From contig JAETOO010000018.1 of assembly GCA_021771715.1 (NCBI GenBank), forward strand, positions 124,001 to 188,000: a stretch of 64,000 nucleotides of DNA. Direction: 5' to 3'. The translations under genes and the position numbers were made by a program. Of this stretch, positions 19,874-64,000 are shown piece after piece. The stretch's first letter is position 1. Every line of letters starts with the position of its first letter. The DNA is from Oscillospiraceae bacterium. GTDB taxonomy: Bacteria; Bacillota; Clostridia; Lachnospirales; Lachnospiraceae. The notes under the pieces were generated by a model, which did not search any database, was not told the origin of the DNA, and saw only the letters and a list, made by a program, of their open reading frames with translations.

Positions 19874-20110
19874 GGACGAGAAGATAGCAGGGCCGTCCGA
19901 AAGCTCCAAATCGCTCGTCTACAAGTTCTAAGATCTCAAAATACCTGCGCAACTGCCGCTGGCAACTCGAAAAATGTGCCGGATGCACATTTTTCTCAGA
20001 CAGAGCCAGCTAAAAATCCTGCTTGAACGCAGGATTTTTACAGTTGCTCCGGCATTCTGAGACCTAAGAACTTGTAAAGACTCGCTACAGTCGCTTTTGG
20101 ACGGCCCTGC
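19874..20110. ncRNA. Candidate structured RNA/palindromic element, copy A
   Basis: No credible gene lies in 19672-20344. The 237-nt core folds as follows. P1 is 19887-19903 with 20094-20110. P2 is ACAAGTTCT 19921-19929 with AGAACTTGT 20067-20075, then TCTCA/TGAGA and CAACTG/CAGTTG. P3 is GCTGGC 19958-19963 with GCCAGC 20005-20010. P4 is AAAAATGTGC with GCACATTTTT (19970-19994). P5 is TAAAAATCCTGC with GCAGGATTTTTA (20011-20040). P6 is GACT/AGTC near 20079-20092. GACGAG 19875-19880 can pair with CTCGTC 19914-19919, crossing P1 as a pseudoknot. A homologous copy with compensatory changes lies at 25551. The transcribed strand is unknown; a MITE-like DNA element is the alternative. Confidence 0.7.
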
Positions 20111-25550: not shown

Positions 25551-25791
25551 GGACGAGAAGTACACCGGGCCGCCCGGAAGTTCCGAACCGCTCGTCTACA
25601 ATTCCTAAGGCCTCAGAAGGCCTGCGCGACTGCCGCGGGCAACTCGAACCATGTGCCGGATGCACATGGTTCTCAGACAGTGCCCGCTAAGAATCCTGCT
25701 GGATCGCAGGATTCTTACAGTCGCTCCGGCCTCCTGAGACCTAAGGAATTGTAAAGACTCACTATAGTCACTTCCGGACGGCCCGGTGTAC
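25551..25791. ncRNA. Candidate structured RNA/palindromic element, copy B
   Basis: Homologous to 19874-20110 along its whole length and in the same orientation. P1 is longer: 25560-25581 pairs with 25770-25791 with one mismatch. P2 is ACAATTCCT with AGGAATTGT, and an inner CGACTG/CAGTCG. P3 is GCGGGC 25635-25640 with GCCCGC 25682-25687. P4 is AACCATGTGC with GCACATGGTT (25647-25671). P5 is TAAGAATCCTGC with GCAGGATTCTTA (25688-25717). The crossing GACGAG/CTCGTC pair is kept (25552-25557, 25591-25596). Unpaired AACTCG and CTCAGACAG are identical to copy A. It lies just after the importer terminator, in a 545-bp stretch (25441-25985) without a gene. Confidence 0.7.
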
Positions 25792-25825
25792 TTCTCTGTG
25801 GGTGGAGAGCGGGTGGGATGGACTG

Positions 25826-56285: not shown

Positions 56286-57143
56286 ATGGAAAAACAGATA
56301 TCAGAACCATTGATCATTCAGTTTCGAGACCGGCTGGCGAGGGATGAGAGAAGTGAGGCGACGATTCAAAAGTATATGCGCGATCTGGAATCCTTCCGGA
56401 GGTTTGTGGGGAAAGCAAAGATCACGAAGGAGCAGGTCATCGCGTACAAGCAGTACCTGCAGGAGCGGTATCAGCCCGCGAGCGTGAACTCGATGCTGGC
56501 CGCCGTCAACTGCTTCCTGAAGGAGATGGGTTGGTATGACTGCGTGGTGAAAGCGCTGAAGCTGCAGCGCGCGGCATTCCGCAGCCAGGAGCGGGAACTG
56601 ACGAAGCAGGAGTACTACCGCCTGCTGCGGGCCGCAAAAGAGAAGGGCGACATCCGCCTGTATCTGCTGATGGAGACGATCTGCACCACGGGAATCCGGG
56701 TCAGTGAGCTGCGCTTCATCACTGCGGAGGCGGTGCAGGAGGGCCGAGCGGTCGTCTCTCTGAAGGGAAAGACGCGCACGGTGCTGATTCCCGGGAGCCT
56801 CTGCCGGGAGCTGCAAACCTATATAAGGAAGAAAAAGATCCACAGCGGCAGCATTTTCATCACGAAGAGCGGACAGCCGATGGATCGGAACAACATTCTG
56901 CACAGCATGAAAGAGCTGTGTGAGACGGCGCAGGTGGATCGCAGCAAAGTGTTTCCGCACAATCTGCGGCACCTGTTCGCCTGCCTGTATTACAAAGCAC
57001 AGAAGGATCTGAGCCGCCTTGCAGACATCTTGGGCCACTCGAATATTAATACGACGCGTATCTATACGTGCGTCAGCGGGGCGGAGCAGAGCAGACAGAT
57101 TGAGGGCCTTGGCCTGGTGCTGCACGAAAAAATAACCGCATAA
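56286..57143 (+). CDS. Tyrosine recombinase, likely DNA invertase of the adjacent switch
   Basis: A 285-residue XerC/D-like recombinase. The N-terminal core-binding domain (about 5-90) is followed by the catalytic domain. R138 lies in T-T-G-I-R-V-S-E-L, K162 in L-K-G-K-T-R, H225 and R228 in H-N-L-R-H, H251 in L-G-H-S-N and the nucleophile Y260 in T-R-I-Y-T, so all catalytic residues are present. RBS AAAGGAGG. Its stop codon (57141-57143) lies inside the left inverted repeat of the segment described next, which makes that segment its likely substrate. Similar recombinases, such as C. difficile RecV and B. fragilis Mpi-type enzymes, flip promoters. Confidence 0.88.
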   Translation: MEKQISEPLIIQFRDRLARDERSEATIQKYMRDLESFRRFVGKAKITKEQVIAYKQYLQERYQPASVNSMLAAVNCFLKEMGWYDCVVKALKLQRAAFRSQERELTKQEYYRLLRAAKEKGDIRLYLLMETICTTGIRVSELRFITAEAVQEGRAVVSLKGKTRTVLIPGSLCRELQTYIRKKKIHSGSIFITKSGQPMDRNNILHSMKELCETAQVDRSKVFPHNLRHLFACLYYKAQKDLSRLADILGHSNINTTRIYTCVSGAEQSRQIEGLGLVLHEKITA

Positions 57144-57201
57144 TATCCATTATGCGGTACGGTGTGTGAAGCTACATATCTGTCGGGCTTTAAATAAGTT
57201 C

Positions 57202-57230
57202 AGTATATCATAGGAATTTTAAAAAATCAA
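57202..57230 (-). promoter_or_regulatory. Switch promoter, currently facing away from the downstream genes
   Basis: On the minus strand TTGATT (57230-57225), a 17-bp spacer and TATACT (57207-57202) give a strong match. Its -10 box is about 40 bp from the left repeat. In this orientation it would transcribe antisense into the recombinase gene. After inversion it would face the genes from 57557 on, with a leader of about 150 nt. Confidence 0.8.
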
Positions 57231-57268
57231 TTCTTGAAGTGGGGCCAATCCTTGGAATTTTCCATAAT

Positions 57269-57324
57269 AATCAGACCGATATGGGACAATAAATGCATGT
57301 CGGTCTGATTGTTATGCTTTTTTT
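57269..57324 (+). terminator. Terminator inside the invertible segment
   Basis: AATCAGACCGATATG (57269-57283) pairs with CATGTCGGTCTGATT (57296-57310), with one G-U pair. Six bases later a run of seven T follows on the plus strand only. In the present orientation it stops read-through from the recombinase gene towards 57557. Confidence 0.8.
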
Positions 57325-57556
57325 CAGAAAATTAAAAAAACCGTGGCGAAACGGCTGCGGATCTCCGGGAATCCGGCGCCGGTGGGGTACATGCGTCACT
57401 GATCTGCGGTTCCCGGGGGCGGCGGCTGGCGTCCGCCGTACCGCATAATGGATATTAAGCGGTATCCGGGGCGGGAGCGAAGCGCACCGTGGGATAAGCG
57501 ATGAAAAAATACTGTTTCGATAGGGAAGAAAATCGTTTTAGGGAGGACGAAGCGTG

Positions 57557-58012
57557 ATGGAAGCGAGAAAGACACAGGAGTTGGAACCATTGCTGGCAAA
57601 GATGAGAGAGGAGAATCCCAGGGGAGCATTTGTCTGTGACCTCTCGATGTTCTGCCAGATCTTGCGTCTGGAGGCGAGACAGATTCAGCGGATGGGGATC
57701 AAGGAGTACGTGCTGCTGCTGACGCTGCAGGGGGCAGAAGAGTCCGGCGGCGCGCAGCTGACGGATTCGCAGATCGAAAAAGGGATGGAGCTGCTGGCGG
57801 CAGTCCTGCAGCAATCCTTGAGGAGCGGGGATGTGATTACGCGCTGCAGCGCGAGGCAGTTTCTCGTGATGCTTCCGTGCTGTACATACGAGGCGACGAC
57901 AAAGGTAGCACAGAGGCTTCAGGAGAAATTTGAAAACGCGTCCGAGCGTGCGGAGGTATCTGTGCAGTATGAGCTGGAGGAGCTCCCTGTGACCGGGACA
58001 AAGAAAGTGTGA
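57557..58012 (+). CDS. Small GGDEF-like domain protein, degenerate
   Basis: A 151-residue protein. The segment R-S-G-D-V-I-T-R-C-S-A-R-Q-F-L-V-M-L-P near 89-107 has the shape of a GGDEF nucleotide-cyclase core, but the signature is S-A-R-Q-F (98-102), so cyclase activity is unlikely. Similar degenerate domains occur in some Clostridial regulators. The ATG at 57557 follows GGGAGGA. As the first gene after the invertible promoter it should be expressed only in the ON state. Confidence 0.6.
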   Translation: MEARKTQELEPLLAKMREENPRGAFVCDLSMFCQILRLEARQIQRMGIKEYVLLLTLQGAEESGGAQLTDSQIEKGMELLAAVLQQSLRSGDVITRCSARQFLVMLPCCTYEATTKVAQRLQEKFENASERAEVSVQYELEELPVTGTKKV

Positions 58013-58015
58013 GCA

Positions 58016-58447
58016 ATGAAGAAGGAGATAGAGACGACGCTTGTCAGATTTCCCTGCCGCATCCGGCTGTGCATCGACCGGTACGAGGGGGATCTGGCCG
58101 GAAGGATTTACAGCGACCGGTATCCGGGGACGCTGCATTTTAAGGAATGCAGGGAGTTGCTGCTGCTGGGAGATCTGCTGTTTGACCAGTGCGGATATCC
58201 GCAGGCGTTCCAGGAGAGGCGGAGTTTTTCGGGAGAGAACGCGCGATTCGCAGCGTTAGCCCCGCAGGAGGAGGCCGGCGACAGGGTCGGCGCGCTGGCA
58301 ACGGTCGAGCTGGTCATCACGAGCCGCCGCAGAGCCGGATGGCAGGGATTTGTGCTGCGGCCTGACGAGACGTTCGAGGTCAGATTTGAGAGCGAGCTGG
58401 AGCTGCTGCGGTGGCTTCAGGAGATGTTGAAGATAAAGGAGGAGTAG
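58016..58447 (+). CDS. Conserved-looking small protein of unknown function
   Basis: A 143-residue soluble protein, 3 bp after the previous stop and 5 bp before the surface-protein gene, so all three are translationally linked. It contains V-R-F-P-C-R-I-R-L-C-I-D-R-Y-E-G-D-L-A-G at the start in two halves and ends with E-F/V-R-F-E-S-E-L-E-L-L-R-W-L-Q-E. I do not recognise a family. A role in regulation or assembly of the surface protein is only inferred from position. Confidence 0.6.
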   Translation: MKKEIETTLVRFPCRIRLCIDRYEGDLAGRIYSDRYPGTLHFKECRELLLLGDLLFDQCGYPQAFQERRSFSGENARFAALAPQEEAGDRVGALATVELVITSRRRAGWQGFVLRPDETFEVRFESELELLRWLQEMLKIKEE

Positions 58448-58452
58448 GTGGA

Positions 58453-61400
58453 ATGAGACGATGTGTGAAGAGCAGCATTTGTGAAAAATGGATTGCATGG
58501 TTTCTGATAGTCTGCCTCTGCCTGAGCAATATCGGGGAGCTCGGTGTTGCGTTTGCGCAGGAAGAAGCGCAGGAGACGGAGATTGTGACGCTACCGGCTT
58601 CGGAGGCGGGGGAGCAGCCGGATGAGGAGCTGATGGCGCTGGACGAGGAGTTCGCAGGGGAGCCGACGGTGCTGGGTGAGGAGCCTGCGGGAGAGCCGAC
58701 GGTGATCATTGAGAAGCTGGAAGAGGAACCGGCGCCGACCGGGATCCCGAAGGTATCAGAGAGCCCGGAGCCGACGAAAGATCCGGTGCCGGCGGAGGAA
58801 CCGGCAGCGGCGGAGGAGTCGGTACTGACGAAGGACCCGGCGTCATCGGAGGAGCCGTCAGGAGAGCCGAAGCCTGCGGAGGATCAGGAACCGGCGGCGG
58901 AGGAACCGTCAGGAGAGTCGAAGCCGACGGAGGGTCAGGAACCGGCAGCGGAGGAACCGTCAGGAGAGACGAAGCCGACGGAGGGTCAGAAACCGACAGA
59001 GGGTCAGAAACCGACGGAGGATCAGAAACCGACCGAGAGTCAGGGGCCGACGGAGAGCAAAGAACCGACGGAGAATGATACGACGACGGATAGCCAGACG
59101 CCGGGCGAGACGACACCGGATGAGTCGGGATCGGATGAGACGGAACCGCAGAGCGGCAGCGAGTCGGAATCGGATGAGACGGAACCGCAGAGCGGCAGTG
59201 AGTCGGAATCGGATGAGACGGAACCGCAGAGCGGCAGTGAGTCGGAATCCGGAACGGAATCGGAGTCCGGAACTGAGTTGGAATCCGGGACGGAATCAGA
59301 ATCCGGGACAGAATCGGAATCTGAGACGGAATCCGAGTCGGAGTCTGAGACAGAGACAGAGGTGATTCTGGTGGGAGAGACCTGCGATCACCACCCGATC
59401 CATACGCAGCAGTGCGGCTATGTGGAGGGGGATGAGACCGCTGTCTGCGGCTTCTTGTGTCCGATCTGCCACAGTGAGCTGTTCCCGTTTCTGCAGGACT
59501 CCGGCGTGAGCATCCAGGTGCCGGAGGAGGAAGAGGCAAACCTGATCAGCGAGCGCACCGATCTTTTGGAGGGAGTGACGCTATCCAGAGCGGACGGCAG
59601 CGACACCGCAGATCTCTCCGTGAGGGTCTACTCGATCATCGACAGCGCGGCCTACCTTCCGGTGCAGCTGGAGGAGGACCGGTATCTGACACCAGCGGAG
59701 GGCCTGAACTATCTGATGCTCTACGCTGCGTACGACGCCGAGAATCACCTGGTAGCAGCCGCACAGCGGGTGCTGGCGGCAGTGCCGGCGGTGGCGGCGG
59801 AGGACCGGTTCGTCGCGTATGATATGGGAGATGAGAAAACGGCCGCCGTTAAGATTTTTGTAGAACTGAAGGATGAGGATGTCAAGAAACAGATAAATGA
59901 CGAAAGGTATCAGCTCACTATTAGTAGTAAGGATACTGCTGATTTCGCGGAAGAGATCAAGCGCGTGGTCGACGAGACGAATGATGGAGGCCTCCAGTGC
60001 TATGAGTTGTGCTGGAAGGATGAAAGCGGAAAGGTGGTATCAGAACTTCCAGGTTTTAGTGAAGGGACGGAGGCGACCGTCACCGTAGAATACCTGAAGC
60101 CGGAGGCGAGGCTGAGAGGCGAGGACGCCTGCCGGAAGCTCATGGTCCTGAATGTGCAGGACGGAAAGCTGATAGAGGATTCGCACGTAACGGATGTTCA
60201 GGTCACAGGGGCGGAGGAGAAGCCTGAGGGCTATACCAGCTTCAGCTTTACGACAACGGCCAAGGGCCCCTATGTGTTCGCCAGCAAGAGGGTCTACAAG
60301 GGCTATATCGCAGGGCTGAGTATCGAGAGTATGAAGGATGGCACGGAGGACTTTGACACGGTTGAGGCTCCGGGCAATGACGTCAGTGCGACGAACCAGA
60401 TAGTCCGGTCCTTTGATAAGATAGGGTATGATCTGCGTGTGGACTTTGGGGCGCGCAGCATAAAAGCTACGGCGGAGAGCACCGAACTATATTTTGAGAT
60501 GACGATGAATGCCGGGCTGTATGACGCGCAGTTTGATACCAGTGCGTTTCTGTGGCTGGGACAAACGTATGAGATTTCCTATCTGAATGCGGCCGGAGAG
60601 GTAGTCCTGACCAGGAGAAGGGACGGGAAGTACTATCAGGATGACAGGGAGATCAATCTGAATGCCGTGCTGAAATCGAATGAGGAGAAGTACGAGGATA
60701 CGCTCGGAATTGTGACTCAGAGGCTCACCGGATGGGCCACGGTGCACCCGAAGGATCCTGCGAGTAAGAATGTGCTCAGCGGCTATCAAACGTACTCCGC
60801 GGGAGTTCAGATGAAGAATGCCAAGAACGGCAGCAAGATTAGCCCCTCCTTTAAGGTGTGGCTTAAGGGAAATGAGGACAACTACGGTGCGGAGAGCGGA
60901 GAGGGAGGCAGCGTACACCCCTCTGTGAAGATCACGAAGAATGAGACGAAGTCGAAGGAGGTGACCGTATCTGCGGGAGGCAGCTACAATCTCCAGCTGA
61001 AGCGGTGCCCTGATATCAGCTACAAGAGCTGGTTTGATTTCAGGACCGGCGACGAGGTCGACGAGACGATAGTCAGTCGGCTGGATACGCTGGCAAAGAA
61101 AGAGGTAAACTGGGGAATCTCGGATCCGTCGAAGTGGACAGGAATTACGAAGGAAGAGGAGGAGGAGTTCAAATATTACCGCTATGGCCGGATTATTGGC
61201 TACGGTCTGACCCTGCAGCTCTACAACGATCCAGGAAAGAATTTCAAGGGGCTCTCTCTGCCCTCCGGAGATATTACATTTGATCTGACACTGACCTCTG
61301 ATATCGAAGGTGGGGAGGATAACTTCACCCCGCTTCTGTGGGAGTACAATGAGAACGTGGTCTCGAACACGGCGTATAACTACCACGACTACGTGGACAG

Positions 61401-64000
61401 AGGGGCGGTGACGACGCCGGGCGATGGAAAGGGCCACTGGGGCAGGCGGCTCTACTGGAATGAGGAACCCCGGACTGCCTACGCAAAGGGCGGCGCCCCC
61501 AGCAATTATCGTTTCTATTTCGACGGGTGCTATTACGGCGGAACGTGGACGGTGAATGAAGCGGACAAGGTGAAGGATCCTGGGACGGTACTTGGAACCG
61601 GTAAAGATAAAACGTATAGTTTCACTGTCAGCGGCTATGATTTTGATCTTGACGGCGAGAAATTTCCGCTCAAGGATGCAGGGAACAGCGGCAATGTTAC
61701 GCTGTACGAGAACCAGGCGCACTGTTTTTCAGCAGGCTTTATTCAGGTGCTGAATGTGTTTCCTCGGGTACAGAAGATGTCTGTGGCAAGCCTGCAGGAA
61801 TATACGGAGGTAAGTAATCTGAATGTTACCACCTGCGGCGGCCAGGAGATTGCCCCGGAATACGAAAAGAATAAGGAAGATAATAAGATAGAATATAAGG
61901 TCACACTGTATTCGCCGGGTGGAGTCACGAAGGGAAATTCATTTAATAAATTTTTTGAGCTCGGTCCTAAGAGAAATGAGGGGCTTGCGATGAGTGTAGG
62001 GGATGGGTATCTGGGAACGAATTACTGGGACCATCCGAACGACTGCAGCACCTTTGCGGGGGACAAGATCACTCTGATGGGATACGGATTGCTGGACTCC
62101 AGCTCGGATGCGCATATCAACGCGATGAATCTTCTGCAGCTCTTCGACAGCAGGGCGCTGCGCATTGACGGCGAACCGAAGATGTTTCAGGAGCGTACTA
62201 CTGCCTCGGAATTGGGAACGTATCGCATCCTTTATGCGGGTGATCCGGACTATCCGGAGGGCTACGATACCAACAAATCGGATATCATGCACTATATGAA
62301 CGGGGTGCGCGAGGAGGATCTGGTCTACGCGGACGAGTTAGGCGCTGATGGCAAAGTTCATGTAGAGGGGATGCAACCGTTGACCTGTATCGGCGTGCTG
62401 GTGGAGCTGCGCAACTGCGACATTCAGGGCGGCAGATATCAGTATCTGAGCATTCCGATGAAGGTGAATCCGGACGATGAGCGTCTGGTAGGTAAGACGG
62501 TCGGCACCGTGAACGCGGTGCGCATCTGGAAGGGCGAGGGCGCCATGATGAAAGAGGGCCGGCCGATCACCTGGACGGACGGAACGTGGAATGGCAGCGA
62601 GAACGTGCTGGAAGGCTATCAGGACAACGAAGAGATCAAGGACATGGGAGATCTCGAGGACGAAGAGATCAGGCTGTGCCGGGTTGAAAATGGCGCAGCT
62701 CCAGGAAAGACGCACTACATAAAGTGCGAGTTCGAGAACGGCCTGCTCGCCCCGGGTACGGCTGATGCGGGCGTTCTGTACGGGAACAGCCTGATGATCC
62801 TGAGCTATGAGGCCAGCGTCGGAATCAAGGTGGATAAGCAGAGTACGGGCGGAAACGCGACGTTTGACGTGGGCAACAATGAGACGGTGGTGGATTACAC
62901 CATCAACGGGATCGAGACCAAGATCTCCGATCCGACAAAGGCGGCGGACAAGACGACAAACCTGACGATCCAGGTGAAACTGGACGGAGGCGACAAGACG
63001 GACGAAAACAGGAGAATTGCGATCTCCCCGCAATCCTATAGGATAAAGGGCTACCGTGTGAATGAGGACGGCAAACCGGTGGATAAGCAGGGAAATCCGC
63101 TTCCTGTGGATACGTATGGCTGTCCGATGGTCGAGCCGGAGGTGATTGAGATCACCGGATCGAGTGAGGCGCCTATGAGGTTCGGCATAATCTATAAGTA
63201 TGAGACGCCGCAGGGAGGCACAGGTCCTGCCAAGCCTCCGAAATTCTGTCCGATGGAGATCTACCCGGTGCTGCCGAACGTGAACAACCAGCAGATCGTG
63301 TTCGAGATCAAGGATGCGCCTGTGGGAATCGCCCTTCCCGACATCTCGTTCTCGGCGAATATCCAGGTGGGAGAGCATCTGCACAACAACGACACGATCG
63401 AGGCGCACGTCTACATCTGCGGAAGCGGCGATAATCGGGCCTACACGGAAGAGAATGTAGGGGGAAATACCGCCACTGCGGATATCGGTATCATCAAGGG
63501 GATGGGCGCATTCCTGAATAAGACGGTGGACCGCAGCATCATGGAGCTGAATGACTACTTTACCTATACGGTGAGGTACGACAACAACAGCAATAATGAG
63601 AAGGAACTCGTGTATTTCTACGATCTGCTGCCCAGCAACGGCGACAGCCGCAAGTCACGTTTCAGCGGCAGAATAGAACTGGATAACTTCAGCGCGGATC
63701 TGACGAAAAAGGAAGGCGATACCGAGGCGTTCAAGGCGGACGTGACGATCTACGGCAGCACGACCTCGTATTCGGAGCTGAAAGATCGGGTAGACGGTTT
63801 CAACGGAAAAGACAAGGCTACCATCGACGAGATGCTTGAGAGCGGTGAGAATGAAGACGGGAAGCCGCTGTTCGTGAAACTGGGGACGATTGACAATACG
63901 ACAGGAACATTCCGGCCCAGCGGAAGCGGGACAGACGACGTGATAAGAAATATCACGGGTATCTACGTCAAGGCAGAGCACCTCGGAAGCAACCGCGTGC
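58453..64000 (+). CDS. Very large secreted surface protein, 3' end outside the window
   Basis: Open from ATG 58453 to the window edge, at least 1,849 residues. A signal peptide (about 1-36, ending F-A-Q) leads to a Pro/Glu/Ser/Thr-rich stalk (about 40-300) with repeats such as E-E-P-S-G-E-x-K-P and D-E-T-E-P-Q-S-G-S-E-S-E-S. A Cys/His cluster (about 311-340, with C-D-H-H-P-I-H-T-Q-Q-C-G-Y and C-G-F-L-C-P-I-C-H) follows. A long beta-rich region comes next; its end (L-N-K-T-V-D, Y-F-T-Y-T-V-R-Y-D-N) resembles DUF11-type surface modules. An anchor motif would lie beyond the window. It is probably an adhesin-like protein under control of the invertible promoter. Confidence 0.8.
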   Translation, partial: MRRCVKSSICEKWIAWFLIVCLCLSNIGELGVAFAQEEAQETEIVTLPASEAGEQPDEELMALDEEFAGEPTVLGEEPAGEPTVIIEKLEEEPAPTGIPKVSESPEPTKDPVPAEEPAAAEESVLTKDPASSEEPSGEPKPAEDQEPAAEEPSGESKPTEGQEPAAEEPSGETKPTEGQKPTEGQKPTEDQKPTESQGPTESKEPTENDTTTDSQTPGETTPDESGSDETEPQSGSESESDETEPQSGSESESDETEPQSGSESESGTESESGTELESGTESESGTESESETESESESETETEVILVGETCDHHPIHTQQCGYVEGDETAVCGFLCPICHSELFPFLQDSGVSIQVPEEEEANLISERTDLLEGVTLSRADGSDTADLSVRVYSIIDSAAYLPVQLEEDRYLTPAEGLNYLMLYAAYDAENHLVAAAQRVLAAVPAVAAEDRFVAYDMGDEKTAAVKIFVELKDEDVKKQINDERYQLTISSKDTADFAEEIKRVVDETNDGGLQCYELCWKDESGKVVSELPGFSEGTEATVTVEYLKPEARLRGEDACRKLMVLNVQDGKLIEDSHVTDVQVTGAEEKPEGYTSFSFTTTAKGPYVFASKRVYKGYIAGLSIESMKDGTEDFDTVEAPGNDVSATNQIVRSFDKIGYDLRVDFGARSIKATAESTELYFEMTMNAGLYDAQFDTSAFLWLGQTYEISYLNAAGEVVLTRRRDGKYYQDDREINLNAVLKSNEEKYEDTLGIVTQRLTGWATVHPKDPASKNVLSGYQTYSAGVQMKNAKNGSKISPSFKVWLKGNEDNYGAESGEGGSVHPSVKITKNETKSKEVTVSAGGSYNLQLKRCPDISYKSWFDFRTGDEVDETIVSRLDTLAKKEVNWGISDPSKWTGITKEEEEEFKYYRYGRIIGYGLTLQLYNDPGKNFKGLSLPSGDITFDLTLTSDIEGGEDNFTPLLWEYNENVVSNTAYNYHDYVDRGAVTTPGDGKGHWGRRLYWNEEPRTAYAKGGAPSNYRFYFDGCYYGGTWTVNEADKVKDPGTVLGTGKDKTYSFTVSGYDFDLDGEKFPLKDAGNSGNVTLYENQAHCFSAGFIQVLNVFPRVQKMSVASLQEYTEVSNLNVTTCGGQEIAPEYEKNKEDNKIEYKVTLYSPGGVTKGNSFNKFFELGPKRNEGLAMSVGDGYLGTNYWDHPNDCSTFAGDKITLMGYGLLDSSSDAHINAMNLLQLFDSRALRIDGEPKMFQERTTASELGTYRILYAGDPDYPEGYDTNKSDIMHYMNGVREEDLVYADELGADGKVHVEGMQPLTCIGVLVELRNCDIQGGRYQYLSIPMKVNPDDERLVGKTVGTVNAVRIWKGEGAMMKEGRPITWTDGTWNGSENVLEGYQDNEEIKDMGDLEDEEIRLCRVENGAAPGKTHYIKCEFENGLLAPGTADAGVLYGNSLMILSYEASVGIKVDKQSTGGNATFDVGNNETVVDYTINGIETKISDPTKAADKTTNLTIQVKLDGGDKTDENRRIAISPQSYRIKGYRVNEDGKPVDKQGNPLPVDTYGCPMVEPEVIEITGSSEAPMRFGIIYKYETPQGGTGPAKPPKFCPMEIYPVLPNVNNQQIVFEIKDAPVGIALPDISFSANIQVGEHLHNNDTIEAHVYICGSGDNRAYTEENVGGNTATADIGIIKGMGAFLNKTVDRSIMELNDYFTYTVRYDNNSNNEKELVYFYDLLPSNGDSRKSRFSGRIELDNFSADLTKKEGDTEAFKADVTIYGSTTSYSELKDRVDGFNGKDKATIDEMLESGENEDGKPLFVKLGTIDNTTGTFRPSGSGTDDVIRNITGIYVKAEHLGSNRV
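59134..59250 (+). repeat. Three 39-bp coding repeats in the surface-protein stalk
   Basis: Nearly identical units at 59134-59172, 59173-59211 and 59212-59250 encode D-E-T-E-P-Q-S-G-S-E-S-E-S. Such in-frame repeats can change number by slippage or recombination and alter stalk length. Confidence 0.85.

Follow-up and report, generated by a model that had tools for sequence, protein, structure and literature searches.

Organization of the locus

We analyzed a 64-kb stretch of the 4.18 Mb draft genome of an Oscillospiraceae bacterium (hereafter the window, bases 124001-188000 of contig C42), in which a tyrosine recombinase gene near the right-hand end is followed by a pair of inverted repeats and then by genes for surface proteins. 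An earlier note, made from the sequence alone, had described a complete tyrosine recombinase, 28-base-pair (bp) inverted repeats at 57135-57162 and 57436-57463 with one mismatch, and a minus-strand promoter between them at 57202-57230, and each of these was recovered here. The parts lie in the following order (window coordinates):

56286-57143, plus strand: tyrosine recombinase (XerC/D-like), predicted invertase; complete open reading frame (ORF) of 285 amino acids (aa), Phage_integrase match with an E value of 3e-28
57123-57158, minus strand: hairpin resembling a terminator, made up of the left site (10-bp hairpin) and TTTTTT, facing leftward OFF-state transcripts
57135-57162, plus strand: left recombination site with palindromic core ACCGCATAAT-ATCC-ATTATGCGGT, holding the recombinase stop codon
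57163-57435, no strand: predicted invertible segment, 273 bp between the sites
57230-57202, minus strand: sigma-70-type extended -10 promoter, TTGATT-17-TGnTATACT, matching the consensus and facing the recombinase as assembled (OFF)
57263-57324, plus strand: intrinsic-terminator-like hairpin with T7, -31.1 kcal/mol, z -7.35
57436-57463, minus strand: right recombination site, an inverted copy of the left site with one mismatch

The recombinase ORF is intact and retains R138, K162, H225, R228, H251, and Y260, which are invariant in a seven-sequence alignment and which we take to be the catalytic positions. It adjoins the predicted invertible segment, and its stop codon lies inside the left repeat arm, so that arm and ORF overlap. 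The two arms, each 28 nucleotides (nt) long and spaced 273 nt apart, are complementary at 27 of 28 positions; the palindrome is perfect in the left arm and imperfect by one mismatch in the right, with the spacer and the remaining half-site identical in both. Half-sites flanking a spacer are the form of a tyrosine-recombinase core site, and both sites show this architecture, with half-sites arranged around an asymmetric spacer. The 24-nt site core is present in the draft genome in these two copies only, with up to three mismatches allowed. In addition, the arm pair is the top-scoring inverted repeat less than 1.5 kb apart in the window, and none of 20 simulated windows (first-order Markov) contained an inverted-repeat pair with a score of 16 or more. 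Scores of 18-24 were reached by three further pairs in the window, all lying within copies of one palindromic repeat described below.

The predicted promoter is located inside the segment, near one end, and inversion in silico moves it to 57368-57396 on the plus strand; as assembled, a promoter scan returned no plus-strand candidate in 57341-57560. The internal terminator at 57263-57324 would stop recombinase read-through into the operon while the switch is OFF, and it ends up upstream of the promoter once the segment is inverted in silico. The same genome encodes three recombinases of this kind at an E value of 1e-20, each with its own segment, and all three of these switches are called OFF. 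The other two precede giant surface genes: the product of one carries VWA and DUF7604 domains, and that of the other an LPXTG anchor, with a signal-peptidase-like gene in between.

The downstream sortase-pilus gene cluster

Three genes follow the right site within the window:

57554-58012, plus strand: degenerate-GGDEF protein, first operon gene; 152 aa from a GTG start, with an ATG at 57557
58016-58447, plus strand: 143-aa protein of a conserved family, often adjoining a full-length regulator in the genus
58453-64000 and on past the window, plus strand: giant pilin/adhesin with a signal-peptide-like start, 2,997 aa complete in the contig

The earlier note had taken these as a three-gene set ending in a secreted protein of at least 1,849 residues. 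The ORFs are present as described, but the operon is longer: the giant gene ends at C42:191446 (67446 on the window scale), and pilin and sortase genes follow it. The giant protein contains FctA and SdrD_B domains (Pfam) and, by eye, an LPSSG-type anchor. Beyond it, outside the window (locus L013), lie genes for a major pilin of 532 aa, two sortases of 325 and 320 aa, and a minor pilin of 510 aa. The major pilin is of the LPXTG type, with SpaA, GramPos_pilinBB, and Gram_pos_anchor matches, both sortase genes match Sortase, and the minor pilin has a pilin D1 match under the curated cut-off (all Pfam). Because LPXTG-type pilins with pilin domains occur here together with dedicated sortases, the genes downstream of the switch are a sortase-pilus gene cluster, and they are probably transcribed as one unit. 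The earlier note had named a giant surface protein as the target; the predicted target is the whole sortase-pilus operon. After the minor pilin comes a 387-aa ORF (L013:17172-18335; 73172-74335 on the window scale) that is repeat-bearing and, by eye, has the look of an AP2-type DNA-binding protein.

Related recombinases and their sites

A survey with an alignment of seven recombinases (A1) yielded a main set of 80 loci, the best 80 of at least 547 confirmed matches, which together hold 86 related recombinase ORFs. Inverted repeats with a score of at least 15, starting no more than 60 bases past the end of the ORF, were found directly downstream of 69 of the 86 ORFs, or 67 of 84 when the palindromic contig L156, both mirror halves of which are counted among the 69, is left out. 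On the upstream side, which spanned at least 1 kb for 77 of the ORFs, the same score was reached once (1/86, at L188). A second set, drawn from genomes of the taxonomic family, gave a downstream repeat in 26 of 29 loci, the score being reached upstream in two.

The family site has the consensus ACCACATAAT-n4-ATTATGTGGT, and 43 of 69 left sites reach a palindrome score of at least 9 of 12, as compared with 0 of 69 after shuffling. Recombinase and site sequences vary together: the identity of the recombinases correlates with that of their half-sites (r 0.286), and none of 2000 permutations gave a value as high. At an E value of 1e-60, 73 of the 397 genomes sampled from the taxonomic family encode the recombinase, counting its own, and the layout of recombinase, repeat, segment, and repeat recurs in many loci with differing downstream genes. 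The survey connects this recombinase-site family (73/397 genomes) with sortase pili and with giant surface proteins in gut-type Clostridia. In L103 (genus relative G035, C74), four adjoining stretches are related to the window recombinase, with no inverted repeat near the two that were tested.

Orientation of related segments

Segments were called ON or OFF from their promoters, with a minimum of 9.5 points, a distance of no more than 90 bases from the arm, and a lead of 1.5 points over the other direction. Both orientations occur among the relatives. The main set comprises 49 OFF, 10 ON, and 10 undecided loci of 69 (48, 9, and 10 of 67 without L156), compared with an average of 5.1 of 69 base-shuffled segments receiving any call, and the second set comprises 14 OFF, 2 ON, and 10 undecided of 26. 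Pooling the sets and reducing them at 95% recombinase identity left 96 loci (64 OFF, 12 ON, 20 undecided), and reduction at 70% left 63 (37 OFF, 10 ON, 16 undecided). With L156 removed, these become 64 OFF versus 11 ON (binomial p 3e-10) and 37 versus 9 (p 4e-5), p-values that are optimistic because the loci share ancestry. The promoter calls supply a rule by which the ON or OFF state of loci in this family can be told from assembled sequence.

By the same promoter rule, all four genus loci (the window, L015, L016, and L104) are OFF, and a sister subfamily in the genus is split into four ON and four OFF across species. Relatives with the ACCGC half-site include ON loci (L120, 67% identical, and L205, with one such half-site) as well as OFF loci (L122, L125-L127, and L146). 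Within the sister subfamily, L107 and L109 align in reverse along 347 bases (83%) and a further 76 (93%) of 428, as do L108 and L109 along 440 (77%); within the window's subfamily, the OFF locus L134 aligns in reverse to the ON locus L194, with 72% identity over 89 nt. The loci of the sister subfamily (L105-L113) mostly have, by eye, a helicase-like gene downstream, and L105 also has glycosyltransferase-like and NusG-like genes with the look of surface-polysaccharide biosynthesis.

We also compared segments after trimming 75 bases off each end, which largely removes the promoters; L156 was included and the pairs are not independent. Of 79 opposite-call pairs compared, 43 were decided and 38 of these aligned better in reverse, whereas among 242 same-call pairs the forward alignment was better in 115 of the 148 decided. 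These preferences support inversion of whole segments, and they do so largely independently of the promoter call. The contig L156 comes from an isolate (Fournierella massiliensis An912) and reads as an exact palindrome of 5,697 bases with a 263-base segment at its center; this is perhaps a path that an assembler could take given reads in both orientations, or perhaps a plain assembly error.

Terminators across the family

Immediately beyond the left arm, 33 of 69 loci have a T-run and none an A-run, whereas outside the right arm T-runs (9) and A-runs (10) are about equally frequent; at random positions, the background is 8% for T-runs and 12% for A-runs. The excess on the left holds both where the flank lies wholly past the stop codon (11/21) and elsewhere (22/48), and the second set (n=26) shows 15 T-runs and no A-run on the left and 2 and 5, respectively, on the right. 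The left T-run is found in three of four genus loci (the window, L015, and L016, not L104) and in seven of eight loci of the sister subfamily, and it is missing in about half of all loci. Where it is present, the OFF-state promoter would be silenced ahead of the recombinase. Together with the OFF excess (64:11), a left-site terminator in about half of the loci bears on how costly surface structures stay silent yet available.

Proposed mechanism and alternatives

From these sequences, we consider it very probable that the locus is an inverton, an invertible promoter linked to a recombinase, through which a sortase-pilus operon is phase-varied, and that it was captured OFF. A phase-variable surface switch that is OFF as assembled, the central claim of the earlier note, is the best reading in light of the repeats beside 69 of 86 related ORFs, the two orientations among relatives, and the covariation of recombinase and site. 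In this mechanism, the recombinase (56286-57143) would bind the two palindromic sites, act on them, and invert the 273-bp segment, reversibly in this strain, and pilus expression would follow orientation. In the OFF state, the promoter would fire leftward and its transcript would stop at the left-site hairpin and T-run, with the strong internal terminator stopping read-through from the recombinase gene. In the ON state, the inverted promoter would fire rightward through a leader of ~150 nt into the degenerate-GGDEF gene and then, in order, through the genes for the 143-aa protein, the 2,997-aa giant, the major pilin, the two sortases, and the minor pilin.

Several observations weigh against this interpretation. 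No qualifying downstream repeat was found for 17 of the 86 ORFs (L128, L132, four ORFs of L136, three of L139, L155, L158, L163, L171, L175, L179, L180, and L183), with no more than 200 bases following the ORF in seven of these loci (L132, L155, L163, L175, L179, L180, and L183). The internal terminator is no family rule, since the OFF frame contains one on the plus strand in 20 of 59 loci and on the minus strand in 17 of 59, compared with 6 and 3 after shuffling. The earlier note had proposed a search of related genomes for the opposite orientation; it did turn up both orientations, but none of the segments found reversed among the relatives was close to that of the window, the clear inverted alignments coming from the sister subfamily and from loci whose recombinases are ~50-55% identical to that of the window. 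The window species is represented by one genome. Finally, the mismatch in the right site affects a position at which 95 of the family's 98 left sites have A, and the right site may on that account be the weaker of the two.

That mismatch, the OFF calls for all three switches found in the genome, and the strong OFF excess of the family could also be explained by a frozen switch, once invertible and now locked OFF by the site mismatch or by an inactive recombinase, with the pilus operon silent or driven by read-through only. We regard this as unlikely, as the recombinase is intact with its conserved positions kept, the two copies do not differ in the spacer or in the other half-site, and some relatives called ON (e.g., L173 and L203) have one-mismatch repeats too. 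Alternatively, the minus-strand promoter might be fixed in place and hold the recombinase in check by antisense transcription, the repeats being transcription terminators only. The left site and its T-run do resemble a terminator on the minus strand, and left-side T-runs occur in 33 of 69 related loci; however, a terminator in that place would halt the antisense transcript before the body of the recombinase gene, related segments are found in both orientations, and the sites are matched inverted copies that covary with the recombinase rather than independent hairpins, all of which makes this explanation highly improbable. Least probable of all, in our estimation, is that the recombinase is the integrase of a mobile element and the repeats are attachment remnants. 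It does match integrase families generally, and the AP2-like ORF beyond the minor pilin recalls the AP2-type DNA-binding proteins that occur in mobile elements; by eye, though without a systematic search, the adjoining ORF lists contain no phage or conjugation genes, and the same layout recurs in many loci before different genes.

A truncated regulator and its neighbor

The first gene of the operon (57554-58012) encodes a protein with a partial GGDEF match (positions 61-117 of 161) and, by eye on the translation, SARQF at the place of the GGDEF motif. GGDEF is the active-site motif of diguanylate cyclases, and we rejected an active diguanylate cyclase for this product, as both the motif and the full domain are missing. 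Counting its own, 25 of the 47 genus genomes have matches to it, and some of these are weak ones to GGDEF proteins of 700-890 aa. The relatives parsed from fetched loci (n=33) are 394-448 aa long, and four that were checked have BTAD, Trans_reg_C, and GGDEF matches, partly under the curated cut-offs. The window protein aligns solely to the C-terminal part of these ~400-aa relatives, from residues 252-303 on. Judging by these alignments, only the C-terminal domain of a regulator is left in the first gene of the operon, without the DNA-binding part.

The adjoining 143-aa protein has matches in 22 of the 47 genus genomes, counting its own, and none in Pfam, NCBIfam, or PHROGs; its family shows conserved CID, GYPQ, and SRRxAGWQG stretches and a beta3-alpha arrangement predicted twice. 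The regulator and 143-aa genes occur together in six fetched loci (L100-L102 and L117-L119), whereas L116 yielded the 143-aa gene but no regulator. In the two loci that were read (L102 and L119), the pair precedes sequence related to the giant gene. Retention of the gene pair with a regulator that lacks its DNA-binding part suggests that inversion has taken over control. We tentatively propose, with somewhat less than even confidence, that a DNA switch replaced a protein switch: a SARP-like activator (Trans_reg_C, BTAD, and degenerate GGDEF) may have lost its DNA-binding half as an inverton with an antisense terminator at its left site took control, and since the family is mostly OFF across Clostridia assemblies, expression of the pilus and giant adhesin may be a minority, bet-hedged state. 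The truncated regulator would in this way suggest how one form of gene control may displace another.

A dispersed palindromic repeat in the window

Elsewhere in the window, positions 25555-25796 form a highly palindromic 242-bp element, a 261-nt stretch of which folds at -155 kcal/mol (z -14.6). The genome holds ~40 copies (42 match rows, two of them the element's own reverse; the others 77-87% identical), and no Rfam family was matched at gathering score. It looks like a dispersed repeat, either similar to a miniature inverted-repeat transposable element or a structured RNA. A second copy, 84% identical, lies at 19890-20107 (C42:143890-144107) and accounts for the inverted-repeat pair at 19920/20041.

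Comparison with known systems

The fim system of Escherichia coli makes a chaperone-usher pilus and has two recombinases, whereas the window has one recombinase and sortase-assembled pilins. The two are alike in having the promoter inside the segment, the recombinase genes nearby, and a pilus operon as target (PMC2784873). The likeness to Clostridioides difficile RecV, which the earlier note had offered as a parallel, extends to a XerC/D-type tyrosine recombinase, a surface target, and a terminator in the model; it does not extend to the promoter, which for cwpV lies outside the inverted segment, nor to the recombinase, recV being unlinked and located elsewhere (PMC2784873). The inverted repeats of cwpV are 21 bp long and 195 bp apart, against 28 and 273 in the window (PMC2784873). 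We rejected a terminator switch of the RecV/cwpV type here because the promoter candidate (57202-57230) is inside the segment and the recombinase adjoins it.

Inverton group 139 of Clostridia has been linked to the tyrosine-recombinase invertase group 35, and Clostridium sp. D5 and Intestinimonas butyriciproducens carry members of the group for which orientation shifts are reported (PMC11892184). It resembles the window in having a tyrosine recombinase beside an inverton in Clostridia, and the words pilus, pili, and sortase are absent from the main text of that paper (PMC11892184). Our main set includes a locus from I. butyriciproducens (L184). In the Gram-positive Streptococcus zooepidemicus, a recombinase adjoins a short invertible promoter that precedes SZO08560, a gene for an LPXTG surface protein, and reads in the reverse orientation were found (PMC2654543); that promoter serves a single surface protein and has 10-bp repeats (GTAGACTTTA), unlike the pilus operon of the window. 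The gut commensal Bifidobacterium breve switches sortase-dependent pili ON and OFF, by replication slippage rather than by the DNA inversion proposed here (PMC9187656).

A search confined to open-licence papers, and to the terms used in it, returned no description of a sortase-pilus operon under inverton control in this group. The principle of recombinase-adjoined invertible promoters before surface genes is known; the pilus target and some details of the design look new. Four features are of specialist interest: this target, the truncation of the regulator, a terminator that is part of the recombination site, and the prevalence of OFF over ON calls.

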